From an uncultured Alistipes sp. (lineage in GTDB: Bacteria > Bacteroidota > Bacteroidia > Bacteroidales > Rikenellaceae), in contig CALUMM010000018.1 in assembly GCA_944321755.1 (NCBI GenBank), positions 1-46,029 on the forward strand: a stretch of DNA of 46,029 nt, in the 5' to 3' direction. Below the pieces are notes generated by a model. It had not been told where the DNA came from. It saw only the letters and a program-made list of their open reading frames with translations, and searched no databases. The stretch's first letter is position 1. Each line of letters begins with the position of its first letter. Both the position numbers and the translations under genes were made by a program. Positions 5,043 through 32,368 of this stretch are shown here, one piece after another.

Positions 5043-5078
5043 AAAAAGAGGACCGCCGGAGGTCGGACCTCCGGCGGT
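5043..5078 (-). terminator. Rho-independent terminator of the sulfatase/PL15 operon
   Basis: A perfect 12-bp stem, ACCGCCGGAGGT (5052-5063) with ACCTCCGGCGGT (5067-5078) and a 3-base loop, is followed on the - strand by CCTCTTTTT. It sits 18 bp beyond the stop codon of the PL15 gene and separates that operon from the regulator gene. Confidence 0.9.
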
Positions 5079-15015: not shown

Positions 15016-15023
15016 CAAATTTA
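15016..15023 (-). promoter_or_regulatory. -7 promoter box of the sulfatase/PL15 operon
   Basis: TAAATTTG on the - strand matches the Bacteroidetes TAnnTTTG box. Transcription would start near 15010, giving a leader of about 118 nt before the first sulfatase. No -33 TTTG box is present at the right distance, which fits an activator-dependent promoter. Confidence 0.75.
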
Positions 15024-15093
15024 GGAAAAAGCACACTTCCGTGCCACGGCGTTTGTCCCCAAAATCCCGGATCGTGTGCAAAACTCTTTCGAT

Positions 15094-15121
15094 TTTGTAG
15101 AATCGAATCCCAAATTTGTCC
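15094..15121 (-). promoter_or_regulatory. Predicted regulator operator, copy 1 (for the - strand operon)
   Basis: On the - strand two half-sites, GACAAAT and ACAAA, start at 15119 and 15098 (the A of ACAAA), 21 bp apart. The second starts exactly 75 bp upstream of the T of the -7 box at 15023. The same element occurs at 15159-15186 and 32252-32279. Across the 27 positions from the G before the first ACAAA to the end of the second, 18 are identical in all three. With the 32 kb copy the wider match is 29 of 36 bases. Two more phased half-sites lie downstream (ACACG at 15077 and ACAAA at 15056). Direct repeats two helical turns apart suit an AraC-family dimer. Confidence 0.75.
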
Positions 15122-15158
15122 TAAAACCCCGCCGGAAACCCCTCCCGAGGCCGAAATT

Positions 15159-15186
15159 CGACAAATGCGGCATCCGGTTGCACAAA
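15159..15186 (+). promoter_or_regulatory. Predicted regulator operator, copy 2 (for the three-lyase operon)
   Basis: On the + strand the half-sites GACAAAT and ACAAA start at 15161 and 15182 (the A of ACAAA), 21 bp apart. The second starts exactly 75 bp before the -7 box at 15257. The inner sequence shares the G, ATCC and RTT positions with the other two copies. It points the opposite way from copy 1, so each divergent operon has its own site. Confidence 0.75.
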
Positions 15187-15256
15187 TCTGATACTCCTTT
15201 GCAGAATTTCCGCCGAGGTTTGTGAGATTCTGATAAAAGAGCTCGCCGCTTTGTCG

Positions 15257-15264
15257 TATCTTTG
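15257..15264 (+). promoter_or_regulatory. -7 promoter box of the three-lyase operon
   Basis: TATCTTTG matches TAnnTTTG. The leader to the first PL12 gene would be about 100 nt. No -33 box is seen at the expected distance. The remaining divergent region (14892-15369) holds no other gene. Confidence 0.75.
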
Positions 15265-15369
15265 TCTTTGCGCCGGAATCCCCGGAATCCGCGGTCCGGC
15301 CGCGGAATCCGAAGTCCGCAGACGCCTCCGAAACCCTGAAACCACCCAAACCGAAAACCTGCGACACCT

Positions 15370-17307
15370 ATGAAAACCGCCAAACTACTCGCTCCGCTGC
15401 TGGCCCTGCTCCTCGGCCTGCCGGGAATGGCCCAAACCGATTCGACCGTCTTCGCCCTGCTCGACCTCACCCGCCCCGGACTCGAAGAAGTCGCCCGGTA
15501 TCACGCCGCAGGCAACGACCCGGCAGCCGCCGACGCCCTGCTGGCCTATTTTCGCAACCGCACCTCGGTCCGCTGCCCCGGAGTCGAGACCGACGCCCCG
15601 GAGATCACCCCCGACGAGCAGCGCTGGGCAGACGAAGCCCTCGAACACCGCTTCTTCGTCCATTCGGGCTACCAGCCCTCCTATTTCTATGGCGACGACA
15701 TCGACTGGCAGTACTGGCCCGTGCGGGACAACGAACTCCGCTGGCAGCTCCACCGCATGAAGTGGTGGGTCCCCATGGGAAAGGCATACCGCCGCTCGGG
15801 CGACGAACGCTACGCCACGGAGTGGTGCGCCGAATACCTCGACTGGATCCGCAAGAACCCCCTCACCGAGTATGACGAAAGCCAAATCGGCGACTGGACC
15901 TCGGCCGACAACGTCTACTTCGCCTGGCGGCCCCTCGAAGTGAGCGACCGTCTGGAGTTCCAGATCCACCAGTTCCTCTACTTCCTGCCCGCCCGGGCAT
16001 TCGACGGGGAGTTCCTCCTGCAGTTCCTCGAAAACTACCACCGTCACGCCGAACACATCACCCGCCATTTCTCCGCCTCGGGCAACCACCTGCTGTTCCA
16101 GGCCCAGCGGCTGCTCTTCGCCGGGGCCTTCTTCCCCGAGTTCCGCGACGCCGCACGCTGGCGCGCCACCGGCGTCGAGATCCTCAACCGCGAAATCCGC
16201 AAACAGGTCTACGACGACGGTATGCAGTACGAACTCGACCCCCACTACCACCTGGAGTCGATCAACATCTTCTTCAAGGCCCTGCAGATGATGGACGCCA
16301 ACGGCTACCGCGGCGAATTCCCCGCCGAATACCTCGCCACCGTCGAACGCATGATCGACGTCCACCTCAACTGCTCCTACCCCGACTACACCACCCCGCT
16401 CTTCAGCGACAACCGTCAGCAGGAGAAGGCACACCTGCTCGAATCCTACCGCGAATGGCTGACGGTATTCCCCGAAAACACGTTCATCCGCGAACGCGCC
16501 ACACAGGGGGCCGAAGGCGCCGTGCCGACATACCTCTCGCGGGCGTTCCGCACCTCGGGGTTCTACGTCCTGCGCAACGGCTGGGACAACGACGCCACGG
16601 TGATGATCCTCAAGGCCGGGCCCAAGGCATTCTGGCACTGCCAGCCCGACAACGGGACCTTCGAAATCTGGCACCGCGGCCGCAACTTCTTCCCCGATTC
16701 GGGCAGCTACGTCTACGGCGGCGACAGCGCCGTGCTCGCCCAGCGAAACTGGTTCCGACAGACCCGCGTACACAACACCCTCACGCTCGACGGCCGCAAC
16801 CTCGATGCAACAGACTCGAAGTGCCTCCGCTGGGAGACCGTCGGCGGAACCGACATCCTCACGGTTGAGAACCCCTCCTACGAGGGCCTTACGCACCGGC
16901 GCACGGTGTGGTTCGTCGACCGGCGCTTCTTCGTCATCGAGGATGTGGCCACGGGCGAGGCCGCGGGCCGCGTCGCCCTGCACTACAACCTCGCGGAGGG
17001 CCAGCCCGAAGAGGAGCTCGCGGCAGGGCGCGTCGCAACCCGTTTCGAGGATGGGAACAACCTCCTCGTGCAGGTCTTCGGGGCCGAAGCTGCGGAGCCG
17101 CAGGAGGGGTGGGTTTCGCACGTCTACCGTTCGCGCAACCCCCGTCCGGCCTACGCCTTCACGGCAGAGAAACAGCCCGGCAGGGAGGTGCGTTTCATCA
17201 CCGTCCTGCTCCCCGCCGAGCACCCCGCCGAGGCGAAGATCAAGGCCGAACGTCGCCGCGGCACCATCCGTGTGACGGTCGACGGCCGGAAATACGATCT
17301 GAAATAG
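15370..17307 (+). CDS. Heparinase III-type lyase, PL12 (first tandem copy)
   Basis: The 645-residue protein has a signal peptide (MKTAKLLAPLLALLLGLPGM) ending in a signal peptidase I-like AQ and no lipobox, so it is probably periplasmic. The toroid carries SGNHLLFQAQRLLFAGAFFP, with the Asn expected to neutralise the uronic acid, and MQYELDPHYHLESI with the catalytic Tyr. The beta-sandwich carries FWHCQPDNGTFEIW and RVHNTLTLDGRN with conserved His residues. This is the full residue set of PL12 heparinase III, which cleaves low-sulfated heparan sulfate to unsaturated products. It is the first gene of a three-lyase operon, 39 bp before a second PL12 gene to which it is clearly related, with stretches of near-identical DNA. 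Confidence 0.92.
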   Translation: MKTAKLLAPLLALLLGLPGMAQTDSTVFALLDLTRPGLEEVARYHAAGNDPAAADALLAYFRNRTSVRCPGVETDAPEITPDEQRWADEALEHRFFVHSGYQPSYFYGDDIDWQYWPVRDNELRWQLHRMKWWVPMGKAYRRSGDERYATEWCAEYLDWIRKNPLTEYDESQIGDWTSADNVYFAWRPLEVSDRLEFQIHQFLYFLPARAFDGEFLLQFLENYHRHAEHITRHFSASGNHLLFQAQRLLFAGAFFPEFRDAARWRATGVEILNREIRKQVYDDGMQYELDPHYHLESINIFFKALQMMDANGYRGEFPAEYLATVERMIDVHLNCSYPDYTTPLFSDNRQQEKAHLLESYREWLTVFPENTFIRERATQGAEGAVPTYLSRAFRTSGFYVLRNGWDNDATVMILKAGPKAFWHCQPDNGTFEIWHRGRNFFPDSGSYVYGGDSAVLAQRNWFRQTRVHNTLTLDGRNLDATDSKCLRWETVGGTDILTVENPSYEGLTHRRTVWFVDRRFFVIEDVATGEAAGRVALHYNLAEGQPEEELAAGRVATRFEDGNNLLVQVFGAEAAEPQEGWVSHVYRSRNPRPAYAFTAEKQPGREVRFITVLLPAEHPAEAKIKAERRRGTIRVTVDGRKYDLK

Positions 17308-17346
17308 AACCCACGGGAACGAACCGAAAAACCAACTATACCAAAT

Positions 17347-19353
17347 ATGAAACGAATTCTGATGATCGGCTGCGCCCTGCTGGCATTCGCCACGGCAGCG
17401 GCAGCCGCGGAACCGGTAAAACCGGCGCTCGGCGATGAAAAATCGCTCTACGACCTGCTGGACCTCGAACGCCCGGAGCTCAAGAACGTGAAAAAGGCCG
17501 TCGAGAAGGGGAACATCCCCGCCGCTGACAAGGAGCTGCTCAAGTATTTCCGCACGCGAAAACCCGTGCAGCTCTTCGGGCTCGACCTCGAAAACATCAA
17601 GGTCAGCAAACTCGAACAGCGCCAGGCCGACGAAGCCCTCGAACACAAATTCTACGCCCACAAGGGCTATCAGCCCTCCTACTTCTACGGCGACGACATC
17701 GACTGGCGATACTGGCCCGTGCGGGACAACGAACTCCGCTGGCAGCTCCACCGCCACTACTGGTTCATCCCGCTGGCCAAGTGCTACTACCTGACCCGCG
17801 ACAACCGCTACATCGACGCCTGGATCGACCAGTACACCGACTGGGTGAAGAAGAACCCGCTGGACGGCGTCGAGCGTCTCAAGGCCGCCGGAGCCTCCGA
17901 GGAGGAGATCGCCGCCGAACGCGAAAACATCCGTTTCGCCTGGCGGCCCATGGAGGCCGGACGCCGGCTGCAGGACCTGCTGACGGAGTTCGCACTGACC
18001 ATTCAGTCGCCGCGCTTCTCGCCCGAATTCCTCAACCTCTTCCTGCGCACCTACCGCCAGCACGCCGACCACATCCTGCACAACTACTCGAAGCAGGGCA
18101 ACCATCTGCTCTTCGAGGCCCAGCGGATGCTCTTCGCCGGGATCTACTTCCCGGAGTTCCGCGAGGCCGCCGAGTGGCGCCGCAGCGGCATCGAGATCCT
18201 TAACCGCGAAATCGGCGTCCAGGTCTATCCCGACGGGATGCAGTTCGAACTGGACTTCGGATACCACATCGCCGCCATCGACATCTTCCTCAAGGCCCTC
18301 GGCATGGCCCGTCAGAACGGTTTCGAAAACGAATTCCCCGCCTCCTACATCGAGACCGTCGGAAAGATGACCACCGTCACGTGGAACCTCCTCTTCCCCG
18401 ACTACTCCAACCCGATGTTCGGCGACACGAAGAGCCACGACAAAGCCTCGCTCAAGAAGCAGTTCCGCAGTTGGAGCCGCGTCTTCCCCGACGACCACCA
18501 GCTCCAGTGGTTCGCATCCGAAGGCCGCAAGGGGGCTCTTCCCGACTACACCTCGCAGCAGTTCCCCGCTTCGGGATTCTACGTCCTGCGCACGGGTTGG
18601 GACACGGATGCCACCGTCACGGTCGTCAAGGCCGGGCCCCCGGCCTTCTGGCACAACCAGCCCGACAACGGAACCTTCGACTACTGGCGTCGCGGCCGCA
18701 ACTTCTTCCCCGATTCGGGCAGCTACGTCTACGGAGGCGACAGCGCCGTACTCGCCCAGCGCAACTGGTTCCGCCAGACCCGCGTGCACAACACCCTGAC
18801 GCTCGACAACCGAAACCTCGACTCGACCGACTCGAAACTCCTCTTGTGGAAGGCCGCGCCCGAAGAGACCGTACTCGTCACCGAGAACCCCTCCTACGAG
18901 GGCCTCACCCACCGCCGGGCCTTCTTCGCCACGCAGGACGGGCTGCTCGTAATCGCCGACCTCGCCACGGGGGCGGCTGCCGGGACCGTCGGCGTGCACT
19001 TCAACCTCTGCCCCGGCAAGGTGGAGTTCGCCAAGGACGGCACGCTCCGCACGCTCTTCGACGACGGAAACAACATCCGCATCAAGAGCACGGGCAGTGC
19101 TCCACTGAAGATCCAGCAGGAGGAGGGCTGGGTCTCGAACGCCTACCGCAAGAAGGAGGAGCGTCCGGCCTACGCCGTCGAGATGCCCAAGAAGGCCGGG
19201 GAGAGTCTCTGGCTCATCACCGTCATCACACCCGACGACGATGCCCGGAAGGGTTCGATCGCCATCGTCCCCGACCAGGAGAATACCGGCAGCCGGTTCG
19301 GCGTCGCAATCCGCGTCGGCGGCAAAACCTACCGTTTCGGCTATGAACTTTAA
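17347..19353 (+). CDS. Heparinase III-type lyase, PL12 (second tandem copy)
   Basis: The 668-residue protein has a signal peptide (MKRILMIGCALLAFATAAAA). Key segments are QGNHLLFEAQRMLFAGIYFP (Asn), MQFELDFGYHIAAI (Tyr), FWHNQPDNGTFDYW and RVHNTLTLDNRN (His). All predicted catalytic residues of PL12 are present. It differs from its neighbour around the active site (DFGYH instead of DPHYH) and has an extra KAAGASEEEIAAEREN stretch, so the two may prefer different chain sulfation or length. Two DNA stretches of 44-45 bp are identical to the upstream copy, suggesting gene conversion. Its stop is one base before the likely PL13 start. Confidence 0.92.
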   Translation: MKRILMIGCALLAFATAAAAAEPVKPALGDEKSLYDLLDLERPELKNVKKAVEKGNIPAADKELLKYFRTRKPVQLFGLDLENIKVSKLEQRQADEALEHKFYAHKGYQPSYFYGDDIDWRYWPVRDNELRWQLHRHYWFIPLAKCYYLTRDNRYIDAWIDQYTDWVKKNPLDGVERLKAAGASEEEIAAERENIRFAWRPMEAGRRLQDLLTEFALTIQSPRFSPEFLNLFLRTYRQHADHILHNYSKQGNHLLFEAQRMLFAGIYFPEFREAAEWRRSGIEILNREIGVQVYPDGMQFELDFGYHIAAIDIFLKALGMARQNGFENEFPASYIETVGKMTTVTWNLLFPDYSNPMFGDTKSHDKASLKKQFRSWSRVFPDDHQLQWFASEGRKGALPDYTSQQFPASGFYVLRTGWDTDATVTVVKAGPPAFWHNQPDNGTFDYWRRGRNFFPDSGSYVYGGDSAVLAQRNWFRQTRVHNTLTLDNRNLDSTDSKLLLWKAAPEETVLVTENPSYEGLTHRRAFFATQDGLLVIADLATGAAAGTVGVHFNLCPGKVEFAKDGTLRTLFDDGNNIRIKSTGSAPLKIQQEEGWVSNAYRKKEERPAYAVEMPKKAGESLWLITVITPDDDARKGSIAIVPDQENTGSRFGVAIRVGGKTYRFGYEL

Positions 19354-19354
19354 G

Positions 19355-20491
19355 ATGAAAACGATCGGAATCCTCGGGGCGCTGCTCGTCGGGATGTCGG
19401 CAGCGGCCCAGCAACCCCAACTGCAACCCCTCTCCGAACGGGTGAACATCCAGGGCGATTCGGCCCGCCGTGAACAGGTGATCGACGGGGAGTGGGTCGC
19501 CGTGGGAATCCGCAAACCCGAGGCGCTGTGCCGCGACTACTCCCGTCTCTATGACGGAAAACCCTCCTACCGTTTCACGCTCGGAAGCGGGGACAACACC
19601 CTCAAGGGGTACTCTCCCGGCGAAACCAAGGGACGGTCGGAACTCGCGTACTGCTACGCCGTGGCGGAGGATTTCGCCGCGTTGACGCCCGACGCCTATG
19701 CCGATGCGCAGAAGATGAAGACCGTCTACCACCACGGCAAGGGGATCTGTCCCCAGGGTACCTCGTGGCGATACACCTTTGCCGTGTACGTCCCCGCGGA
19801 GCTCGACAGCCGGGTATCGACCATCTTCGCACAGTGGCACGGTATGCCCGACCGCACGCTCGTGACCGCTCCGGACGGCCGGGTCCGGCAGCTCTCGACG
19901 AAGGAGTTCGTCGCGCTCTACGATACGGTTGTCATCAAAAAGGATGTCGCCTACCGCCGCATCCAGGCCACCGACCGCAAGGGCCGCACGATCTGGAAAG
20001 CCGGAGAACCGACCGGCTGGAAGGTCGAACAGGGGGGTTATCCTCCGCTGGCGTTCGGATTCTCCGGCGGGTGGTTCTACATCAAGGCCAACTCCGACCG
20101 CCGCTGGTTCACCGACAAGGACGACCGTTGCAACGCCAACCCCGAAAAGGTCGGGGTAATGCAGCCCGTCACCTCGGAATTCAAGGTGTCGACAATCGCC
20201 GCCAAGATGCCCTTCGCGGAGTTCCCCAAGGATTGCTGGGTCACCTTCACCGTCGAGGTCCACTGGACCCGCTACGGCGGTGAGGCCGAAACGATCCTGC
20301 AACCCGGACGCCTCGACGTGGCGATGTCGTGCAACGGCCGGACCCGCAAACTCGTCGACAACCAGAAAATCCTTATCGGACGCAACGACGAAGCCGGATA
20401 CTACTTCAAATACGGCATTTATCGCGTGGCCGGAAGCACCGTGCCGGTCAGCTACAACCTCGCCGCATTCTCCCAGCAGCCAATCGAGTAG
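19355..20491 (+). CDS. Heparin lyase I, PL13
   Basis: The 378-residue protein has a signal peptide (MKTIGILGALLVGMSAAAQQ) and closely follows heparinase I of Pedobacter and Bacteroides in order and length (about 380). Matching segments are NIQGDSARREQVIDGEWVAV, SYRFTLGSGDNTLKGYSPGE, FAQWHGMPDRTLV with the catalytic His (residue 162), GWKVEQGGYPPLAFGFSGG and YYFKYGIYRVAGSTVPVSYN. The enzyme cleaves highly sulfated heparin endolytically in the periplasm. An ATG at 19343 in the same frame would add four residues and overlap the PL12 stop; 19355 places the signal peptide normally. It is the last gene of the operon and is followed by a strong terminator. In B. thetaiotaomicron the PL13 gene is separate from the main locus; here it is inside it. 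Confidence 0.95.
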   Translation: MKTIGILGALLVGMSAAAQQPQLQPLSERVNIQGDSARREQVIDGEWVAVGIRKPEALCRDYSRLYDGKPSYRFTLGSGDNTLKGYSPGETKGRSELAYCYAVAEDFAALTPDAYADAQKMKTVYHHGKGICPQGTSWRYTFAVYVPAELDSRVSTIFAQWHGMPDRTLVTAPDGRVRQLSTKEFVALYDTVVIKKDVAYRRIQATDRKGRTIWKAGEPTGWKVEQGGYPPLAFGFSGGWFYIKANSDRRWFTDKDDRCNANPEKVGVMQPVTSEFKVSTIAAKMPFAEFPKDCWVTFTVEVHWTRYGGEAETILQPGRLDVAMSCNGRTRKLVDNQKILIGRNDEAGYYFKYGIYRVAGSTVPVSYNLAAFSQQPIE

Positions 20492-20515
20492 CCGGCCGGA
20501 ACCGGTTCCGGCCGG
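20492..20515. other. 24-bp perfect palindrome after the PL13 stop codon
   Basis: CCGGCCGGAACC is followed directly by its reverse complement GGTTCCGGCCGG, starting at the base after the stop codon. There is no loop and no T run, so it is not a standard terminator. Short GGGAGAGT/TTTCGTCCG repeats follow it up to the terminator. Confidence 0.75.
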
Positions 20516-20567
20516 GAGGATTTCGTCCGGGAGAGTCTTGCCGGGAGAGTTTCGTCCGAAGCATGTG

Positions 20568-20605
20568 AAAAAGCCCTGCCACCGTGAAGTGGCAGGGCTT
20601 TTTTT
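20568..20605 (+). terminator. Rho-independent terminator of the three-lyase operon
   Basis: A 13-bp stem, AAAGCCCTGCCAC with GTGGCAGGGCTTT, has a 6-base loop and ends in a run of seven Ts. It lies about 80 bp after the PL13 stop. Confidence 0.93.
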
Positions 20606-20606
20606 G

Positions 20607-20840
20607 AGCGCAGGAGGGGGGGGGTAGAGAGGCAGAGAGGGAGGGAGGCAGAAGCAACAGAAGAGGAAGAGGAAGAAGGCCGCGGCGATGAACAGGAAGA
20701 GACGCAAAAAGGGCGAAAGAAGGCAAAGAAGGGCAAAGAAGAAGCGGGCTGTGTCAAGGCTGTGTCCGTCACGCAGTGCAGAAAGGGACGATCAAGGGTG
20801 CGGAAAGGATCGGTCATGGGTGCGGAAAGGATCAGTCAAG
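20607..20840. repeat. Purine-rich low-complexity tract in a convergent intergenic region
   Basis: It begins with nine Gs (20616-20624), followed by GAGAGG/GAGGAA repeats to about 20745. Near 20807-20840 GGGTGCGGAAAGGATC occurs twice. The + strand is almost all purine in the first part. No gene is supported; frames here are artefacts of composition. Confidence 0.75.
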
Positions 20841-20916
20841 GATCAGTTAAGGCCGTATCCGCCGTACAGGGCAGGAGGCTCCAGGAGCGGCATGTCCCGA
20901 AGCGGCTGTCACTTCA

Positions 20917-20954
20917 TGAAAAATCCCGACCGGAATCGCTCCGGCCGGGATTTT
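20917..20954 (-). terminator. Rho-independent terminator of the SusC/SusD operon
   Basis: AATCCCGACCGGA (20922-20934) pairs with TCCGGCCGGGATT (20940-20952), with one G-T type mismatch. A run of As on the + strand gives a T run on the - strand. It is 22 bp beyond the SusD stop and may also work in the other direction. Confidence 0.85.
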
Positions 20955-20975
20955 CCCGGATAAATGGAATCGGAT

Positions 20976-22616
20976 CTATTCCCAACCCGGATTTTGCTTG
21001 CACTTCGTCATCAGGTCGAGGTCCCGCTGCGGGATGGGCAGCAACTCGTGACGCCCCTCCACCGTAAAGCGCGCAACCGTATAATTGGCATTCGTAAACC
21101 AGTTCACCAACTCCTGGGCCGTGTTGCGGATCGTCGTGTAATAGATCCCCCAACGGATCAGGTCCTGCTTGCGGTGACCCTCGAAGCAGAGTTCATAGGC
21201 CCGCTCCTTGCGGATCGCCTCCCGCAGCTCCTCCTGCGAAAGCCCGTAGGAAAGATCGTGGGCCGTATCCCCGAAGCCCCGGCGCCGAACCGCGTTCACT
21301 GCATCCACTGCATCCACAACCGAACCGCCCGACTCGTTCAACGCCTCGGCAAACAGCAGCAGCACGTCCGAATAACGCAGGATATACCAGTTGATGCACG
21401 ACTTGTCGTTGTTGATCATGTAGTTCGCCGAATTGACGTACTTCTCCGTATCCCACTTCGCCGGGGTGAAGATCTGACGCTGTTTGTTCAGATTATCCTC
21501 CGTCGGGTTGCTCACCGTCGAGAAGTAGGTGACAGGCCCGTCGCCCTTCGACGAGTCGTACCGATAGTCGGCAATCGACAGCGCCATGCGCGGGTCTTTA
21601 TGCGACTCCCACTCCCGCGTGAAGGTGTAGACTACCTTCCAGTTCGCGGCGTTACGTCCGCGCTTGCCCTCAACCGCATCGGCCAACACGCCGTTCCACT
21701 TGCCGATACGTCCGGCCGTCATGTCGCTGTCCAGGCTCGTCGGCGAGTAGAACGACACCTCGATCAGGCTCTCGCCCGCATCCCAGATCCCGTTGCAGGT
21801 GTTCGACCAGACGGTCTCGTAATCCGGAATCAGACGGTGCTTGCCCGACTCCACGACCTGACGAGCTGCCTTTGCGGCCTCGGCCCACTTCGACTCGTCG
21901 CGCACCGGATAACCCGCCCACGTGCAGTAGACCTTCGCCAGCAGTCCCAGCGCCGCACCCTTCGAAAAACGGTAGGCGTTCGACGAACGTTTCGTATCGT
22001 CAACGGCCCACGGAAGAACCTCCGCAGCATATTTCAGATCCTCCTCGATGAAGGCATAGACCTCCTTCGGATCGGACTGCACATACTCCGTGGCCGGAAT
22101 GTTCGACTCCGCCGTCGACTTCACCAACACCACGTTCCCGTACCAGCGGACCAGTTCGAAATAGAACAACGCCCGCAAAGCCCGCGCTTCGCCCAGGTAG
22201 ATCGTCGCCAGCTCCCGGTTCGAGGAGTTCCAGCCGTCCAGACGCGACGAAACCGTCTCGATGAAGTCGTTGGCGTCGTAGATCGACGAATAGAGTTTCT
22301 GCCACGTCTGCTCGATCTGCGGGGTCGACGGGTTGTGCGAGTTGGTCGGAATCTCACGGAACGAGGAGGTCGTACTGCCCTCGCACTGCGCAATGTCCGA
22401 CGAAATAGTAAACAACAGCGACAGATGAAAGGAGTAGAGGTAGTCGTTGGTCAGGTTCTTGTAGATGCCCATCAGCACCGTCTCAGCCTCCGAAACGTTG
22501 TTCAGGTAATTATCCTTGCCGACCTCCGTATAGGACTCCTCCTCCAGCAGATCGGAGCACGATATCCCGAAAAGAAGCCCCAGCGTCGATAAACCGTATA
22601 ATAAGATCTTTTTCAT
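20976..22616 (-). CDS. SusD-family outer-membrane glycan-binding lipoprotein
   Basis: The 546-residue lipoprotein (LLFGISCSDLLEE) has the SusD/RagB architecture: an N-terminal helical region with NVSEAETVLMGIYKNLTNDY, a middle with GEARALRALFYFELVRWYG and the SKGAALGLLAKVYCTWAGYP helix pair (TPR-like). The C-terminal RKERAYELCFEGHRKQDLIRWG segment is the most conserved SusD motif. It forms the extracellular lid of the SusC channel and helps capture heparin oligosaccharides. The start was moved to the ATG before the lipoprotein signal, three codons inside the longest frame. It is the last gene of the uptake operon, 17 bp after SusC. Confidence 0.95.
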   Translation of the reverse strand: MKKILLYGLSTLGLLFGISCSDLLEEESYTEVGKDNYLNNVSEAETVLMGIYKNLTNDYLYSFHLSLLFTISSDIAQCEGSTTSSFREIPTNSHNPSTPQIEQTWQKLYSSIYDANDFIETVSSRLDGWNSSNRELATIYLGEARALRALFYFELVRWYGNVVLVKSTAESNIPATEYVQSDPKEVYAFIEEDLKYAAEVLPWAVDDTKRSSNAYRFSKGAALGLLAKVYCTWAGYPVRDESKWAEAAKAARQVVESGKHRLIPDYETVWSNTCNGIWDAGESLIEVSFYSPTSLDSDMTAGRIGKWNGVLADAVEGKRGRNAANWKVVYTFTREWESHKDPRMALSIADYRYDSSKGDGPVTYFSTVSNPTEDNLNKQRQIFTPAKWDTEKYVNSANYMINNDKSCINWYILRYSDVLLLFAEALNESGGSVVDAVDAVNAVRRRGFGDTAHDLSYGLSQEELREAIRKERAYELCFEGHRKQDLIRWGIYYTTIRNTAQELVNWFTNANYTVARFTVEGRHELLPIPQRDLDLMTKCKQNPGWE

Positions 22617-22633
22617 AATGCTCAAGCGTTTTT

Positions 22634-25600: not shown

Positions 25601-25789
25601 GTTCAGGTCCGTCGAGACTCCCTGCGTCGTGCCCTTCACCACGACGTTGGCTCCGATGGCCGGCTGTCCGTTCTCGTCGACCACCTTGCCCGTTATCTTG
25701 TTCTGGGCCGTGGCCGCGAAGGCCACTACCAGGGCGAGAAGGGTCAGAACCCCTCTCAGCCCGAATGCCCGTTTCTTCATATCTTTCAT
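22634..25789 (-). CDS. SusC-family TonB-dependent outer-membrane transporter
   Basis: The 1051-residue protein has a signal peptide (LTLLALVVAFAATAQ). A carboxypeptidase-regulatory-like domain follows (ITGKVVDENGQPAIGANVVV to about residue 115), then MDEVVVVGYGAQKRSDLTGS, the usual entry to the plug. The plug (SIEVLKDASSSAIYGSRAAN) and a 22-strand barrel complete it, ending in an aromatic residue (VGLDLTF). It imports heparin oligosaccharides across the outer membrane using TonB energy, together with SusD. No sigma/anti-sigma signalling domain precedes it, in line with control by the hybrid two-component regulator. Starts at 25789 and 25780 are both possible. The stop of the glycan-binding gene is 18 bp upstream. 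Confidence 0.96.
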   Translation of the reverse strand: MKDMKKRAFGLRGVLTLLALVVAFAATAQNKITGKVVDENGQPAIGANVVVKGTTQGVSTDLNGVYNLSVKKGSVLVFSYLGYKSQEITVSTQTTINVTLEPEANIMDEVVVVGYGAQKRSDLTGSIASVSAKDVEGFKSGSVMEALGGQIAGVQITATDGTPGAGFDIKIRGIGSVNGDTTPLYIVDGFQVDNIDYLSNSDIASIEVLKDASSSAIYGSRAANGVVMVTTKSGKKGRPVVTYNGSASYREISKTLDLLSPYEFVRLQTEAWPDKFGDTYYKVGNDDNGNPYRYQTIDDYIGVSGIDWQRETFQPTWSQDHNVSVSGGSDRTKYAFSFSDFLENGIFRNSAFNKITAKMRVSHKVSKLLTVDATVNYAFTDKRGVGTSGDNGRFNMLGQILRARPTGGIRMTDEELLNLAIDPLELESSESLSQVNPIKQAESVTNTRKAEMWSGNVALNFNLGKGWSFRTAGSYFTTNTRYYQFYYDGSKEAYRNGQTPYGSTQMTRDVRWTNFNYLTYKYEKKNGHAFDVMLGQETSFKGTEYLKGQSTDFPFDNLGNNNLSLGATPSQVTSSRSDNMLVSFFARGNYSYKDRYLFTATIRADGSTVFSKNNKWGYFPSFSAAWRISEEPFMKNQDVVSNLKLRAGWGMVGNDRITNYLSLTLYSQGKYGYGNSLITVLSPKQLPNEDLKWEASQSTNIGIDLGLFRNRLNITADVFLKDTKDLLMEANKAYVSGFKTQWQNVGKIRNQGLELVINSTNIVSPSGFRWTTDFNISFIRNELRALANGATMYTSASWNSDYTGYDYMAQIGQSLGLIYGYQFDGVYQSSDFVVDAATGEMRLREGVVDMSTHYTSGEFGPGVVKYKDIDGDGKITAADRTVIGNGTPKWYGGITNTFSYKGVDLSFMFQFNYGNDVYNATRIYASQSQDQRANLMAEVADRWTATNASNSVPRWDGYVKNEIYSRFIEDGSFLRLKSLTLGYTLPQHWTRKFYVSKLRVYFSGQNLFVVTGYTGYDPEVNMRSSNPMTPSLDWGAYPRSKVYTVGLDLTF

Positions 25790-25807
25790 AAGATTCTTTC
25801 AGTTAGG

Positions 25808-27967
25808 TTAAAATTTCTCGTCGAACCATACGACCATGTAGATAAAGGTCTTTGTTCCCGAAGCATCAAGAGTCGAGAATGTTCCATCCAGCGTATAGGG
25901 GGCCTGGAAAATCAGAACTCCGTTGGCATACGCCCCATCGAGCATCCATTTACCGGCCGGAATATACATCTTCGAGTCGTTGCCGCAGTCGATATATCCG
26001 ATTTTGTTCGTCAGATTCGTCGCCACACTGCTGCTGTTCAGATCGTAGTACGACATCGGTTCCCGACTGCCGGCATTGACCGCTCCGTTTGCCCACGGAT
26101 AGGTAGCCCACATCCGGAAAATAAACGTATTGGTTGCCGATGACGAAAGCTGACCGCTCACGTGCGACGACGGACCGTTGAAGTTGTAGTAGAAAATATT
26201 ACGCTTCAACGAAATCATGAACTTCGACTTGTCTCCGTCAATCGTCGGTGCTTCGGAGTATCCGCCCGTCCGCGGGTTGATACAAATGACCATCGGCTTG
26301 TAAACCACCGCCTTGTCGATCGCCGTCTGCGTCTTTACAAAGAGATAGGTCGAACGGGTAATGGCCGTCTCTCCCGAACCGATCGTCGCATCGATCTTCA
26401 ATACGCCGATCTGGCCCGCACGGTCATTGCGGAAGGTCAGATGGAGAGATCCATCATCCGTAATATAGGTCAGCGTGGATTTCGTCCGGAACGGGTTGTT
26501 GTGAATAAGCGTCATCTTGAAAGTGACATTCCGCCCGTTGAAATCTTCATGCGCCACCGGAATATCCACGGTCGTATCCCCACTCGCACCCCCGTCCATA
26601 TCAAAGACATGCTGATCGGCATTCGTCGTCCAATCCAGTCCAAGGTTATTCCCGTAACTGAATGTCGTGAACATATTCGGGTTGGCAATAACCTTCAGCG
26701 TGAAGACCGCCTCTGCGGGAGACTCACTCTTAATATTCGAAGCCTGAACCGGAATCTGATACTCGCCCGGATCGGCCATAATACCGGAAAGCGATGAGAT
26801 TTCGCCCGTCGCGGCATCGATCGTCAATTGTCCGGCCAAAGCTTCGGGAAGCTCTCCCAACGCGAAGATCACTTCGTCGCCAACAAAGCCGTCGGCTTTC
26901 GGCGCCTTGAAATTCGTACCTTCAACCACCTCGACCATCGCATAGGAGAAGGTCTCCGGCTCAATCGGGGCGATATAATCGACCACCGTCAGCATGAAGG
27001 CCCCGTCGAAATCCGCAGACCCGAAGTCGTTCGTCACCGTCAGATCCAGCGTATAGACCGCTCCGACGGGCAGGCCGTTGCCCGCATCCACCGAGATGAT
27101 TCCCGTTGCAGGATCGATCTTGATCAGATCCGTCTCGGGGCTGTTCTCCCCCGGACGAACCTGCCGAATGGACCAGGCAACTCCGTCGGGAGAACCCTTC
27201 AGTGTCGGGGTCGTGCTGCTGAAGGCCATGTCGGTCTCGATACGTCCGGCCGACGTGGGATAGCTCACCGAAAGCGGAAGACTCGTAATCCGCGCCGTCA
27301 GCACATTTTCAAAAGTCTTCGTCCCGGCATAAGTCTCGATCTTCACCGAAATCGGATAATTCCCCGGCATCACCTCGCCCTCAAAATTTTCATCGAGCGT
27401 TATGACTCCATCCTTAGAGATGGTAAAATATTCGAATCCCTTCTCCTGAACCAGCGAATAGCTTTGGATCGTAACCGATTCCCCGACCGGAGTCACGGTC
27501 ACCGAAGCCTCACTCGTCTCCAGATCGGCATAGGGTATCTCCAGCGTCGAAGCGCTCAATTCGATCTCCTCAGGGGTTGCCGAAACCATTTGGATGACAA
27601 AAATATCCTTGAACGTATAGCTCCCGCCGCCGGCCTGACACGAAATCGTCAGTTTATAGGTCCCGGTCGCCAGTTCCGAAGTGTTCGAAATGCTGACCAT
27701 ACCCGTATCGGCACTGATCGAGAAACTGTCGCTCGTAACAGCCTGACCATTCAGCGTAATGCCCACAATCGCAAAATTCCCCGGTTTGGGCCCGTAGTAG
27801 GTCGGAACACCCGATACGAAATTCATCGAGGGACCGATATTCACAACCTCCGAATAGTAGAGGTCCAAAGCATCCGACGTTTCGTCGTCCTTACAGCCCG
27901 CAAAGAGCACCGCACCCAGCAAAAACGCCGTGACGGCAAGGCTGATATTTCGAAACATTGATTTCAT
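25808..27967 (-). CDS. Surface glycan-binding lipoprotein (SGBP), heparin PUL
   Basis: The 719-residue lipoprotein (LLGAVLFAGCKDDE, with acidic residues after the Cys that suit surface export) is built of repeated beta-sandwich/cadherin-like segments. Sequence such as FSISADTGMVSISNTSELAT, LIKIDPATGIISVDAGNGLP and LTIDAATGEISSLSG recurs at roughly 90-100 residue spacing. The last 250 residues form a different, Asn/Thr/Tyr-rich domain that probably binds glycan. Position before SusC matches BT4661, the known heparin-binding surface protein of B. thetaiotaomicron. No catalytic motif was seen. Its G+C and codon use look a little lower than those of the neighbouring enzymes. An ATG three codons downstream is an alternative start. 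It is the third gene of the uptake operon, 21 bp after the PL12 gene. Confidence 0.8.
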   Translation of the reverse strand: MKSMFRNISLAVTAFLLGAVLFAGCKDDETSDALDLYYSEVVNIGPSMNFVSGVPTYYGPKPGNFAIVGITLNGQAVTSDSFSISADTGMVSISNTSELATGTYKLTISCQAGGGSYTFKDIFVIQMVSATPEEIELSASTLEIPYADLETSEASVTVTPVGESVTIQSYSLVQEKGFEYFTISKDGVITLDENFEGEVMPGNYPISVKIETYAGTKTFENVLTARITSLPLSVSYPTSAGRIETDMAFSSTTPTLKGSPDGVAWSIRQVRPGENSPETDLIKIDPATGIISVDAGNGLPVGAVYTLDLTVTNDFGSADFDGAFMLTVVDYIAPIEPETFSYAMVEVVEGTNFKAPKADGFVGDEVIFALGELPEALAGQLTIDAATGEISSLSGIMADPGEYQIPVQASNIKSESPAEAVFTLKVIANPNMFTTFSYGNNLGLDWTTNADQHVFDMDGGASGDTTVDIPVAHEDFNGRNVTFKMTLIHNNPFRTKSTLTYITDDGSLHLTFRNDRAGQIGVLKIDATIGSGETAITRSTYLFVKTQTAIDKAVVYKPMVICINPRTGGYSEAPTIDGDKSKFMISLKRNIFYYNFNGPSSHVSGQLSSSATNTFIFRMWATYPWANGAVNAGSREPMSYYDLNSSSVATNLTNKIGYIDCGNDSKMYIPAGKWMLDGAYANGVLIFQAPYTLDGTFSTLDASGTKTFIYMVVWFDEKF

Positions 27968-27988
27968 ATTCGTTTTGCAGTTTTAGGT

Positions 27989-30907
27989 TTACAGCGTATA
28001 GGAGAGGTTGTAGGTCTTGCCGTCGACCCGAACCGATATCGAGGCTCCCGTCTCCGACCACTCGCCCGTATTGATCTCGACCGTCTGGGCCGCAGCATCC
28101 GTCGTCGGAAGCAGAACCGTCACGTAACGGACCGCTGCATCCGAAGCGCTCTTCTCAATGTTGAGCTGATAGGCCTTGCGCTCGATCTCCTTGTAGGAGT
28201 CGGTCACGATGTTGTAGGCCACGAAGCCATCCTTCTCGGCAAAGGTGAACGCCTTGTCCGATGCCGTCCGGACCAGCAGGTTGTTGCCATCCGAGAATGC
28301 CGTATGGAAGCCGCCTTCGGCCGTATCCAGCACCACCTGCGAATCGTTGCCCTCCACGACGTTGAAGTTCAGGTTCACCGTACCCTCGGCCGAGCCGTAG
28401 CCCTCGTCGAGAATCACGTAGAACTTATCGTTCACCAGGAAAACCGAACGGCGGTGCGTCAGACCCGCGTAGGAGGGGTTCTCCAGCACCAGAATATCGT
28501 AGGAATAAGAGGAGGTCGATCGGGTCTCCTGCTTGAGCATCCGGCCCGCACTCGTCACGTTCTTACCATTGAGTGTCAGCGTATTGTGCGCCGTCGTGGC
28601 AGCATAACGGGAACGTATTGCATTCGACTGCGAGTCACCTCCGTAAGAACCGGCACCCGAATCGGGGAAGAAGTTCCGGCCCTTGACCCACAGTTCGAAC
28701 GTATTGTTATCCGACTGGCGGTGCCACTGGTCCACATCCACGTCGGGTCGGTTCTGCAGCACCATCATCATATCCTGCATCGTCCAGCCCGTGCGCATCA
28801 TGTAATAGCCGCAGTCCGCATAGCACTTCACCCGCGTCGCGGGAGCCGTCCCCTGGGTTCCCCCGGTCGCCATCCACGCCAGCTCCGCATTGTCGGGGAA
28901 AAGCGTCAGGTAGTTCGTCAGGTTGCGCTTCAGCACGCTCTCCGTCCACGAGGAGGCCCGCGTGTCGGCCATGTTCGGAACCGTATAGTTCGGGTAGATC
29001 ATGTTCATCACCACGTCCACCATCTTCTGCATCGACGAAACGTAATTCGACGGGAAGTAGCTCTCGCCGTTGTTGAGCTGCGCTACCAGCAGCGCCGAAC
29101 GGAAATCCTCGATACTCGAAATGTGGTACGAGAAGTCGCCGTCCTTGAGCCAGCCGTCGTCGAAATACTGCTCCGTGATCTGGCGTCCCAGCACGCCCGG
29201 GCCGTTCGTCCGCCACGTTGCGGCATTCTTCAGCTCGGGGAAGAGCATTCCCGCGAAGGTCACCGCCTGAGCCTGCGTGATCAGGTGGTTCGTCGACGTC
29301 GAATAGTTGTTCATGATGTGGTTCACCTGCTCGTCGAAGTGCTTCAGAACCGTCGACAGCCACTCGCCCGTCATCGTCTCCGACGGCTGGTAATACTCCA
29401 GCAGCGCGCACTGGTCGACCACACGAGCCGCAACGTCCAGCGGACGCCAGTTCCATGAATTCGACACATCGGTACCCTGTTCCGGCTTGGGATTTTGGCG
29501 GATCCAGTCACCGTAGACCTCCATCCAGTTCTCGACGTAGCGTTCGTCGCTTGTCGCGTTATAGGCCTTGCCCTGCATGATCATCCACTGGTGGCGGTGC
29601 AACTGATAACGTTGTTCCTGCTCTTTGGTCGGCCAAATCGTCCAATCGATACCCGTGCCGTCCATGTTCATGTACGAATAGGGAACGTTCGTCCCGGCCG
29701 ACGTGTCGAAGTAGTTCTTCACGTAGAACCGGTAGCCGTTCTCCCGGAAGGCGTAGTCCGCCCAACTCTTCTCCGAGGTCGTCGCCTGGTCGCTCTCCAC
29801 CTTCACGTTGGGGTTCCGGCCGTGGGTCCGCGCCCGGTAGGCGTTCAGCAGCTCCTGCTGCGCCAGCCGGTAGTCCCCGGCCGCACACGCTGCCGCAACC
29901 TTCGAAAGTCCTCCGTAGGAGAGGTCCAGCAATTCGAAGACCGAAACGTCGATTCCGCCGTTCATCGCCACCGAACCGCTCTCGACCCACGCCTTCGCAT
30001 CCTTCATCTCGGGGAAGATCGTGCCCGCACGGTAGACAGCATAGGACTCCTGGGCCAGTTCGTCGCCATCCGCCGCATAGTGGTTCATCACATGCCCCAC
30101 CTGCTCGACCAGATTCGACAGGTACGATGAAAGCAGCTGCGGCGTAAACGACGAAGACTGCATGAAATAGTAGAGCAGGTCGCACTGCGCCTCAACGCGG
30201 TACGACACGTCGATCGGACGCCACGCATAGAGCGCCTCCCGAACCGCTTCGGGCTGGCCCGACGGATCGGCATTGAAATCGTAATCGCCCTCCGGAAGCG
30301 GGAAGGTCTCCAGCCAGCTCTCGTAGACCGATGCCCACGACGTGACGTAAGTCTCGTCGAGCGACGTGCGGTAGGCTTTGCCCTGCGGGACCATCCACTC
30401 CAGGCGGTGCAGGCGGAAACGCTCCTCGGTCTCGCCCGCCGAACGGGCCTTCCAGTCGAGCTTGCCGCTGGTGTTCTGATAGGAGTAGGGTTTGTCTCCG
30501 TCGAGGTACCCCTCGACATAGAATCGGTAACCGTCCTTCGCGTCGCCCGTAGCCGGAAGCGCGTAGTCGGCCCACGACTGCTCCTGGGTCGTGATCGTCG
30601 GCGCGATCAGATTGACGTTGCCGTTGACCAGACTCCGCGAACGGAAATAGTTCAACAGGGCCTGCGCCGCCAGATAATACTGGTCGGATTCGTAGTAGGC
30701 CTTCACGGAGGCGAGTTCCGGAAGATCCAGGTTCAACGCCTTGAAGACGCGGGCGTCGATCACACTGTTTCCGGGAATCGTCGAATCGGTCGTTTGCGAA
30801 CCGTTGCTCTCCTCGCTGCCCATCACTTCGTCCCCCAGGCACCCTACGGTGAGGGCCGACGAGACAACGAGACAGAACAACGAGATCTTCGTAAAGATTC
30901 GTTTCAT
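27989..30907 (-). CDS. PL12 heparinase lipoprotein with a duplicated, apparently inactive N-terminal toroid
   Basis: The 972-residue lipoprotein (VVSSALTVGCLGDEVMGSEE) is far longer than the 645- and 668-residue PL12 enzymes in this locus, because the N-terminal part of the toroid is present twice. Copy 1 is about residues 54-311 and copy 2 about 323-568. Paired segments include VFKALNLDLPEL/VFELLDLSYGGL, SWADYALP/SWADYAFR, RFRLHRLEWMVPQGKAY/RYQLHRHQWMIMQGKAY and AGTIFPEM/AGMLFPEL. Copy 2 keeps Asn540-His541 (STNHL), followed by FSYHISS and the beta-sandwich His residues (QWHRQSDNNTF, TTAHNTLTLNGKN). Copy 1 has Asp282-Glu283 there and lacks the Tyr segment, so it should be inactive and perhaps binds substrate. 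A surface endolytic role like BT4662 is inferred. It lies 28 bp after GH88. Confidence 0.9.
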   Translation of the reverse strand: MKRIFTKISLFCLVVSSALTVGCLGDEVMGSEESNGSQTTDSTIPGNSVIDARVFKALNLDLPELASVKAYYESDQYYLAAQALLNYFRSRSLVNGNVNLIAPTITTQEQSWADYALPATGDAKDGYRFYVEGYLDGDKPYSYQNTSGKLDWKARSAGETEERFRLHRLEWMVPQGKAYRTSLDETYVTSWASVYESWLETFPLPEGDYDFNADPSGQPEAVREALYAWRPIDVSYRVEAQCDLLYYFMQSSSFTPQLLSSYLSNLVEQVGHVMNHYAADGDELAQESYAVYRAGTIFPEMKDAKAWVESGSVAMNGGIDVSVFELLDLSYGGLSKVAAACAAGDYRLAQQELLNAYRARTHGRNPNVKVESDQATTSEKSWADYAFRENGYRFYVKNYFDTSAGTNVPYSYMNMDGTGIDWTIWPTKEQEQRYQLHRHQWMIMQGKAYNATSDERYVENWMEVYGDWIRQNPKPEQGTDVSNSWNWRPLDVAARVVDQCALLEYYQPSETMTGEWLSTVLKHFDEQVNHIMNNYSTSTNHLITQAQAVTFAGMLFPELKNAATWRTNGPGVLGRQITEQYFDDGWLKDGDFSYHISSIEDFRSALLVAQLNNGESYFPSNYVSSMQKMVDVVMNMIYPNYTVPNMADTRASSWTESVLKRNLTNYLTLFPDNAELAWMATGGTQGTAPATRVKCYADCGYYMMRTGWTMQDMMMVLQNRPDVDVDQWHRQSDNNTFELWVKGRNFFPDSGAGSYGGDSQSNAIRSRYAATTAHNTLTLNGKNVTSAGRMLKQETRSTSSYSYDILVLENPSYAGLTHRRSVFLVNDKFYVILDEGYGSAEGTVNLNFNVVEGNDSQVVLDTAEGGFHTAFSDGNNLLVRTASDKAFTFAEKDGFVAYNIVTDSYKEIERKAYQLNIEKSASDAAVRYVTVLLPTTDAAAQTVEINTGEWSETGASISVRVDGKTYNLSYTL

Positions 30908-30935
30908 ATGGTTAATGGTTTTAGGGATTGCTGTT

Positions 30936-32132
30936 TCAGAGCTGCAGAGGATCCACGCCCCGCAGCGAAAGATAACGCTGGATAGCCTCCAGATAGTAGT
31001 AGTCCGCGTAGTTGAGCGGCGTGTCGATCTCGCTCTCGGCGGGCAGATGACCCACGCTGTGCTTCAGGATAAAGCCCCCGTTGGTGCCCTTCCCGGCCAG
31101 GTAGGCATCCGACGACAGGCTCATCAGCATCGCTTCGGCCCGTTCGAAATAGGCCTTGCCCTCGCTCTCGGGAACCAGCGTCGACAACTCGAAGAGCGCC
31201 GAGGCGATCACCGCCGCAGCCGAAGCGTCGCGCGGAGCGTTCGGAATGTCCGGAGCGTCGTAGTCCCAGTAGGGAATCAGATCCTCGGGCGTCCGCGGAT
31301 GGTTCATGATGAACGCGGCGATGCGACGCGCATGGTCCAGATATTTCGTGTCGCCCGTCTCGCGGTAGCACATCGTATAGCCGTAGAGGCCCCAGCCCTG
31401 GCCCCGGGCCCAGGCCGAAGCGTCGGAGTAGCCCTGGAACGTCCCGCGGCTCTCGACCGTGCCGTCGTCGTTGTAGCTCACCACGTGGTACGAGCTGGCG
31501 TCCTCACGGAAGTGGTTCTGCAGCGTGATGTCCGCATGGCGAACCGCCACGTCGCGGTATTTCGGGTCTCCCGTATGCTTCGAGGCCCAGAAGAGCATCT
31601 CCAGGTTCATCATGTTGTCGATGATCACCGGGTAGTTCCACTCCCCGAAGTCCCACGAGCGGATCACGCCGATGACCGGATCCTGACGCGAAATGAGGCT
31701 GTTGGCCGCCTCGACGATCACTTCGGCCGAATGCGCGTCATGAAGCGCCTGCTGCTGCTGTCCGTAGCTGCAGAAGACCATGAAGCCCAGGTCGTGCGTC
31801 CCCTTATAATATTGTATGCCTTCGAGCCGCGCGGTGAATTTCTCGGCCTCGGCGCGCAGGTGCTCGTCGCCCGTCAGGCGGTAGGCTTCCCACAGCGTAC
31901 CCGGATAGAAGCCGCTGGTCCAGTCCTTCGGGTCCACGACCTTGAATTTCGGCATCAGCGAGCGCGGAAAACCCGGCAGCGAATCGAACTCCGCAGCGGA
32001 GAGTTCCAACTGGGCGTGGGCAACGTCGATGGCCCGCTTCACGGCGTCGATCTTCGGATCGGACCCCGTGTGGCAGGAGCTCAGCACAAAAAGGGAAAAA
32101 AGTCCCGGAATCAGGAGGAGGTTTTTTCTCAT
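30936..32132 (-). CDS. Unsaturated glucuronyl hydrolase, GH88
   Basis: The 398-residue lipoprotein (LFSLFVLSSCHTGS) shows GH88 segments in order: TSGFYPGTLWEAYRLTGDEH, HDLGFMVFCSYG with Asp114, YPVIIDNMMNLEMLFW with Asp172 and SDASAWARGQGWGLYGYTMC. The two Asp residues match the paired catalytic acids of the family in context and spacing. The enzyme removes the 4,5-unsaturated uronic acid that lyases leave at the non-reducing end, in the periplasm. It is the first gene of the uptake operon and is preceded by the predicted promoter and operator; BT4658 is the counterpart in B. thetaiotaomicron. Confidence 0.95.
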   Translation of the reverse strand: MRKNLLLIPGLFSLFVLSSCHTGSDPKIDAVKRAIDVAHAQLELSAAEFDSLPGFPRSLMPKFKVVDPKDWTSGFYPGTLWEAYRLTGDEHLRAEAEKFTARLEGIQYYKGTHDLGFMVFCSYGQQQQALHDAHSAEVIVEAANSLISRQDPVIGVIRSWDFGEWNYPVIIDNMMNLEMLFWASKHTGDPKYRDVAVRHADITLQNHFREDASSYHVVSYNDDGTVESRGTFQGYSDASAWARGQGWGLYGYTMCYRETGDTKYLDHARRIAAFIMNHPRTPEDLIPYWDYDAPDIPNAPRDASAAAVIASALFELSTLVPESEGKAYFERAEAMLMSLSSDAYLAGKGTNGGFILKHSVGHLPAESEIDTPLNYADYYYLEAIQRYLSLRGVDPLQL

Positions 32133-32173
32133 GGATGGTTCAGGTTTTTGTATTCAGGTTGTTTTGACGAATA

Positions 32174-32181
32174 CAAAAGTA
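32174..32181 (-). promoter_or_regulatory. -7 promoter box of the uptake operon
   Basis: TACTTTTG on the - strand matches TAnnTTTG, giving a leader of about 35 nt before GH88. As at the other two PUL promoters, no -33 box stands at the usual distance. Confidence 0.75.
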
Positions 32182-32251
32182 CCCATAAGCCCCCGGAGAG
32201 ACCCCGAGAATTGAAGAATTGATTTTTAAAACCGCTCAAATAACCTTCAAT

Positions 32252-32279
32252 TTTGTGCAATGGAATGCGGAATTTGTCC
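32252..32279 (-). promoter_or_regulatory. Predicted regulator operator, copy 3 (for the uptake operon)
   Basis: On the - strand GACAAAT and ACAAA half-sites start at 32277 and 32256, 21 bp apart. The second starts exactly 75 bp upstream of the T of the -7 box at 32181. Orientation and spacing are identical to those at the other two PUL promoters. The stretch lies between the terminator of the upstream SDR gene and the promoter and carries no gene. Confidence 0.75.
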
Positions 32280-32368
32280 AAAAACCGCCCGGAAAGACTG
32301 TCCAAAGGGGATTTCGAAAAACGTCCCGCGAGCCCTCCCGGACGGGTTTGCAGGAGACTTCCCGGGAC

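Follow-up and report, generated by a model that had tools for sequence, protein, structure and literature searches.

The closest described counterpart of the locus analyzed here is the HTCS_Hep (BT4663) regulon of Bacteroides, which is alike in combining a related HTCS with a direct repeat upstream of heparin operons, and alike in content, with lyases, SusCD-type uptake and sulfatases (PMC3878776). The HTCS_Hep motif, which lies upstream of BT4662, BT4675 and BT4658 (Ravcheev et al. 2013, PMC3878776), is presented, in the part of that article available to us, as a two-site direct repeat in four Bacteroides genomes. For 16 Bacteroides HTCSs, the same source gives predicted direct-repeat motifs with an average distance of 21 bp and proposes that the dimers sit on one side of the DNA, so that HTCS operators generally appear as direct repeats two helical turns apart, as they do here (PMC3878776). 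In EMSA with the B. theta protein, BT4663-RR binds the bt4662 promoter, and does so better when phosphorylated (2024; PMC11253607). The promoters of sigma-ABfr, in turn, are characterized by TAnnTTTG (the -7 box) and a TTTG near -33 (PMC7366714). The promoters considered here have the same -7 box, whereas inspection by eye finds no TTTG at the -33 place, which is taken by the last unit of a repeat array. A further precedent is provided by the tandem boxes of the PhoB/OmpR type, phosphorylation-activated direct-repeat arrays that stand in for the -35 element, with a winged-helix fold, another sigma factor and a soluble regulator. Such arrays would work alike in reaching the polymerase site, whereas the output domain here is of the AraC type.

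Compared with HTCS_Hep as published, the locus examined here belongs to Alistipes and comprises three operons with four units each, at a fixed distance of 75 bp from the second unit to the -7 box. In the accessible portions of the open-access literature, we came across neither units beyond the second nor a constant distance to the -7 box, and the available text of PMC3878776, PMC11253607, PMC5061871, PMC7366714, PMC10994844 and PMC12125979 holds nothing on either. The type of HTCS operator is itself already published, whereas the phase-locked array was not found in print within these portions.

A heparin-type locus and its presumed regulator

The window, that is, the whole 46,029-nucleotide stretch of DNA that was analyzed, corresponds to positions 1-46029 of a contig in a 2.88-Mb draft genome of the genus Alistipes and, judging by gene content, carries a PUL of three operons that we call heparin-type, heparin being the presumed substrate. 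Domain matches assign to the sulfatase operon (S1, minus strand) two sulfatases, a protein with a single, marginal match, an MFS protein and a DUF4962/heparinase II-III-like protein; to the lyase operon (S2, plus strand) a PF14099 lyase and two Hepar_II_III proteins; and to the uptake operon (S3, minus strand) a GH88-like protein, a Hepar_II_III lyase, a BT4661-like SGBP, a TonB receptor and SusD. The respective -7 boxes are TAAATTTG at 15016-15023 (minus strand; first ATG at 14891), TATCTTTG at 15257-15264 (plus strand; first ATG at 15370) and TACTTTTG at 32174-32181 (minus strand; first ATG at 32132).

The presumed regulator of the three operons is the HTCS encoded at 851-4972 (minus strand, with the ATG at 4972 as the chosen start). 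By Pfam it is complete, with a periplasmic propeller/Y_Y_Y sensor (Reg_prop, Y_Y_Y), a kinase (HisKA with HELRTP, HATPase), a receiver with TCHIP in which the receiver Asp is present, and an AraC-type output domain (HTH_18). Residues 40-797 of the sensor match PDB 4a2l, which we take to be BT4663, with 609 bits, the next HTCS scoring 264, and the protein is 41-43% identical over 1335-1372 aa to the HTCSs encoded beside BT4661-like SGBP genes of Bacteroides. Judged by similarity and context, the window HTCS is orthologous to BT4663. In a search that scored at most five candidates per genome, an ortholog of the sensor (E < 1e-120) turned up in every one of the 14 locus-bearing Alistipes genomes and in 0 of the 166 others, and an ortholog with the output domain is encoded at 20 of 36 loci outside the Alistipes set. 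On reading the alignment, the output domains of these HTCSs closely resemble one another in both recognition helices. In the receiver, the S/CHIP motif, which accompanies phosphorylation-gated DNA binding (PMC11253607), takes its CHIP form.

The HTCS gene may have its own promoter, without an array. That the HTCS regulates itself by being the final gene of the S1 operon is unlikely because a terminator-like hairpin (5052-5078, minus strand) lies between the two; moreover, the strict pattern finds no pair there. As side observations on this gene, the tail that follows the AraC domain is a DKER run encoded by a 12-bp tandem repeat of 4.7 copies (891-946, minus strand) that is absent from 20 other aligned HTCSs, and the gene is closely followed on its downstream side by a dense block of tandem repeats (191-833; periods of 14 to 134 bp). 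In another genome (G073:C5:204861-207138), the HTCS sensor is split into two overlapping frames of 583 and 825 aa while three operators are present; this copy may be broken, or the split may be an assembly error.

Four repeats in phase with the -7 box

A direct repeat of about 21 bp lies upstream of all three heparin operons. The original prediction had described it as a pair of half-sites with ACAAA starts at 15119/15098 (minus strand), 15161/15182 (plus strand) and 32277/32256 (minus strand), 21 bp apart in each case, with the second ACAAA 75 bp before TAnnTTTG at every promoter and 18 of 27 named positions identical across the three sites, and our recount reproduces each of these figures. 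The claimed lack of a -33 box likewise stands on inspection by eye: taking the spacing from the -33 TTTG to the -7 box as 19-21 bp, there is no TTTG at that distance upstream of any of the three boxes. The exact pattern ACAAAT-N15-ACAAA has five matches in the 2.88-Mb draft genome, three of them being the S1, S2 and S3 pairs, and the same pattern read backwards has none.

The sequence shared by the three promoters extends past the 27 bp originally described, with TTTG at +37 in all three; the common columns cluster in the repeats and the box; and, beyond the pair, two further, weaker repeats run towards the box. The pair appears to form the strong half of a set of four direct repeats with a 21-bp pitch and a unit that approximates TTGnACAAAATCGAAAT. 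With distances counted from a unit's ACAAA up to where the -7 box begins, the ladder reads 96, 75, 54 and 33 bp. To rank these units, a matrix was made from units 1 and 2 of ten other genomes (28 sites) and applied to 86 positions per promoter. At S1 (minus strand), the strong units 1 (15107-15123; ACAAA at 15119, 96 bp) and 2 (15086-15102; ACAAA at 15098, 75 bp) rank second and first, followed in third and fourth place by the weak units 3 (15065-15081; ACACG at 15077, 54 bp) and 4 (15044-15060; ACAAA at 15056, 33 bp). The order is the same at S2 (plus strand), where the strong units 1 (15157-15173; ACAAA at 15161, 96 bp) and 2 (15178-15194; ACAAA at 15182, 75 bp) again rank second and first, and the weak units 3 (15199-15215; 15203, 54 bp) and 4 (15220-15236; 15224, 33 bp; with TCTGATA as in unit 2) third and fourth. 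At S3 (minus strand), strong units 1 (32265-32281; ACAAA at 32277, 96 bp) and 2 (32244-32260; ACAAA at 32256, 75 bp) rank second and first, weak unit 3 (32223-32239; 32235, 54 bp) fifth, and weak unit 4 (32202-32218; TCAAT at 32214, 33 bp) third. All four units of a promoter are accordingly found among the top four of 86 positions at S1 and S2, and at ranks 1, 2, 3 and 5 at S3.

The same periodicity is apparent in a profile of 40 sites, which has T at 21-bp intervals (-4/-3, 17/18, 38/39 and 59/60, numbered from the first ACAAA) and is conserved also at 48 and at 64-67, with the box at 96. When matrices derived from units 1 and 2 with one genome left out at a time were used to average the scores at the 47 offsets between unit 2 and the box, 33 bp ranked first and 54 bp second among the 42 Alistipes sites; for 35 sites of other genera, 33 bp was again first and 54 bp third, an A-rich 44-bp offset ranking between the two. 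None of 300 column-permuted matrices reached the sum of the 33- and 54-bp scores in either set. Taken by class, S1 and S2 each have 33 bp first and 54 bp second; in the S3 class alone, which includes one S1 site (from G071), 33 bp is fourth of 47 and 54 bp third. In individual promoters outside Alistipes, 33 bp is the single best offset in 5 of 35, with 0.7 expected, and is among the top three in 19 of 35.

Since units of the same kind stand at 54 and 33 bp, the distance of 75 bp can be decomposed into 33 + 2 x 21, and a lone pair working over that distance is probably not the full operator. Of the original half-site claim, then, the direct half-sites two turns apart hold and fit the published form of HTCS motifs, whereas the notion of an isolated pair at that distance probably does not, given that the units continue towards the box. 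In these promoters, which have no -33 box, the unit at 33 bp coincides in position with where TTTG would stand.

So could the two downstream repeats be anything other than HTCS sites? Their scores range from -8.6 to 1.6 bits, against 18.9-24.4 for units 1 and 2, and they may perhaps be unbound; because these absolute scores are low, we label units 3 and 4 as weak and retain a rival explanation. Under the latter, the upstream pair would be the sole HTCS operator and act at a distance, with the conserved columns at -48 and -33 belonging to the site of another regulator, such as a protein resembling Cur (BT4338), or to a polymerase contact. The gap in score fits this scenario, the 1-bp difference between 74 and 75 bp among non-Alistipes sites arises after unit 2 and before the -48/-33 columns, which would suit a separate module, and BT4338 is known to be required for full expression of arabinan genes (PMC5061871). 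Nevertheless, we consider this scenario unlikely: under one and the same matrix, 54 and 33 bp come out in phase with 75, T is present in unit 4 at the five sites where units 1 and 2 both carry it, and elsewhere the strong units themselves sit at 54 and 33 bp.

Conservation within Alistipes and in other genera

In a sample of 180 Alistipes genomes, the locus was located by a GH88 search, in which 47 genomes had a match at 1e-60. The matches show a gap between 76% and 55% identity, and 14 genomes keep the ortholog, two of them (G188 and G191) being counted through partial GH88 matches. These genomes are drafts, and related ones among them are not independent. Together they hold 42 sites, three each, of which 40 have the box at 75 bp and two at 76 bp, the latter both being S2 sites (in G071 and G192). 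A pattern accepting boxes at 70-80 bp recovers 40 of the 42 (38 at 75 bp and two at 76 bp); the remaining two, likewise with the box at 75 bp, are S3 sites whose second unit reads ACGAA. Leaving the box distance free up to about 150 bp gave identical distances for the sites covered. The S3 sites were located through the gene, with the exception of that of G188, which, like the S1/S2 pairs of seven genomes, was located by a pattern allowing 61-91 bp.

A search for the paired half-site across the genus, which the original prediction had suggested as a check, shows the 75-bp spacing concentrated in the genomes that hold the locus. With the gap between the pair and TAnnTTTG left free, the 180 genomes yield 94 matches. 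Inside the 14 locus genomes there are 41, with 37 at 75 bp, two at 76 bp and two elsewhere (70 and 80 bp); the 53 in the other 166 genomes are scattered over 62-88 bp, with three at 75 bp. We therefore reject the idea of a genus-wide motif unrelated to the PUL, the matches outside the 14 genomes being rare (53 in 166 genomes) and scattered in spacing. A chance origin of the pair and its spacing is likewise rejected by these genome counts, together with the distances in other genera. More broadly, chance or a recent duplication of one promoter region could be invoked to explain why the three promoters share sequence; however, the common columns are concentrated in the repeats and the box, and the arrangement recurs in 42 of 42 sites and in other genera, so that this account is refuted by the counts and hardly deserves credence.

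Two further features of the Alistipes sites should be mentioned separately. The divergent S1 and S2 arrays are 42 bp apart, ACAAA to ACAAA, in 12 of the 14 genomes and 32 bp apart in G188 and G191, so that the gap between them (15123-15157 in the window) is one turn less in the latter; their relative helical phase may be preserved as well. An inverted repeat at S3, TTGAAG/CTTCAA, was considered as a separate site and dropped, being broken in G181 and G176.

Outside Alistipes, 36 loci were analyzed: of the 38 named loci obtained in a single profile scan with three SGBPs, four from Alistipes were removed, and the regions of G044 and G055 were added. These loci are not fully independent, in that L132 and L074 have identical sites on contigs of equal length, L058 and L080 come from one bin, and L063 and L064 from one species. 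When the best-scoring pair at each locus was chosen with a matrix made from Alistipes only, a strict TAnnTTTG in the next 20-130 bp occurred solely at 33, 53, 54, 74 and 75 bp. This matrix finds 25 boxes, with 22 of the 36 loci having one at 74-75 bp, two at 53-54 bp and 12 none at these distances. A leave-one-out matrix, the 12 training sites of which were chosen partly for a box at 74-75 bp, finds 28 boxes, with 23 of the 36 loci at 74-75 bp, two at 53-55 bp, two at 32-34 bp and nine without. Some of the boxless loci (L066, L081 and L087) have near-boxes at those distances.

A set of 36 non-Alistipes sites was then picked for a box or near-box at 74 bp (18 sites) or 75 bp (18 sites). The A at -33 and the T at -48, neither of which was used for selection, are invariant, in 36 of 36 sites each. 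In the five sites with ATAAA in both units 1 and 2 (four from Dysgonomonas and one from Prevotella), unit 4 has T too; the remaining 31 have C in its place, including those in which only one of units 1 and 2 has T (L056, L073, L075 and L078). These observations bear on two other accounts. A plain operator of two half-sites 75 bp from the box, with no specific element in the intervening stretch, as originally proposed, would explain why the pair and its spacing are exact and conserved; it would leave the invariant -48 and -33 columns, the peaks of the matrix scores and the 33- and 53-54-bp distances seen in other lineages without explanation, and we regard it as quite improbable. Could units 3 and 4 instead be remnants of an ancestral box-proximal array, new strong units having arisen upstream? 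Such a history would fit the strong units that end at 33 bp in Pedobacter, Sphingobacterium and Proteiniphilum, and the Bacteroidales sites that are strong at 96 and 75 bp. Remnants, however, should not have preserved both columns, the A at -33 and the T at -48, throughout all 36 sites, which makes this possibility very improbable indeed.

Arrays of two or three units occur at Pedobacter, Sphingobacterium and Proteiniphilum promoters and at some promoters of Bacteroides or Phocaeicola. In 13 such sites, chosen by score and by eye among the pairs without a box at 74-75 bp, the last unit is 33 bp from the box in 11 (six with a strict and five with a degenerate box) and 34 bp in one, whereas the thirteenth (the second site of L083) has its box at 55 bp. 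Related units are found also in B. xylanisolvens and B. congonensis. On our reading, lineages hold the box and the last unit fixed, while the number of upstream units, and which of them are strong, vary.

Is this arrangement a general property of HTCS promoters? Among 302 boxes at 83 loci around the HTCS genes of four Bacteroides species (G204, G205, G207 and G208; L133-L217), repeats precede the box with a lag of 21 bp in 45 cases and of 22 bp in 42, against 8-23 for 17 other lags (8-18, apart from lag 31 with 23). These 21- and 22-bp repeats lie at scattered distances; neither a fixed repeat position nor a clear excess of additional units was found among the 302 boxes. A fixed 75-bp rule for all HTCSs is therefore rejected, the 21/22-bp lag being general and the position not, and the claim of an array is confined to the heparin-type HTCS. 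The 22-bp class of repeats before -7 boxes near other HTCS genes is a separate observation; it might represent a second type of operator.

A possible mode of HTCS action and its significance

Computation across these genomes gives units in phase, a fixed box distance, conservation across genera and co-occurrence with the HTCS. Lying on one face of the DNA and ending where the -33 box is missing, such an array would fit an activator that substitutes for this element. The scenario that we consider probable is that a BT4663-type HTCS activates the three operons through the four-unit, 21-bp array as two dimers, with the last unit replacing the -33 box. In this chain of events, the HTCS encoded at 851-4972 would switch on each of the three heparin operons, its AraC-type output domains binding four direct repeats at 21 bp, or two helical turns; with this spacing all units face one side of the DNA. 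The strong upstream units, at 96 and 75 bp, would anchor one HTCS dimer phosphorylated upon the appearance of heparin fragments, and contact with this dimer would bring a second one onto the weak downstream units, at 54 and 33 bp. Unit 4 would overlie the position at which a -33 box can occur in Bacteroides promoters, which would leave it to the second dimer to contact RNA polymerase. We infer that all four units are bound by the HTCS, that the two dimers cooperate and that unit 4 substitutes for the -33 box. The more general formulation, in which two membrane-tethered kinase dimers assemble on a phase-locked array of two, three or four units with the last one fixed at 33 bp, could as easily hold as fail.

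The HTCSs are a major class of glycan-foraging switches in gut Bacteroides. The phase-locked array predicts a contact between the HTCS and the polymerase in which a second dimer substitutes for the -33 element, and it names the exact bases to change, which turns the switching of HTCSs into a testable picture. Furthermore, the array can serve as a strong rule when Bacteroidales and Sphingobacteriales are searched for heparin regulons.
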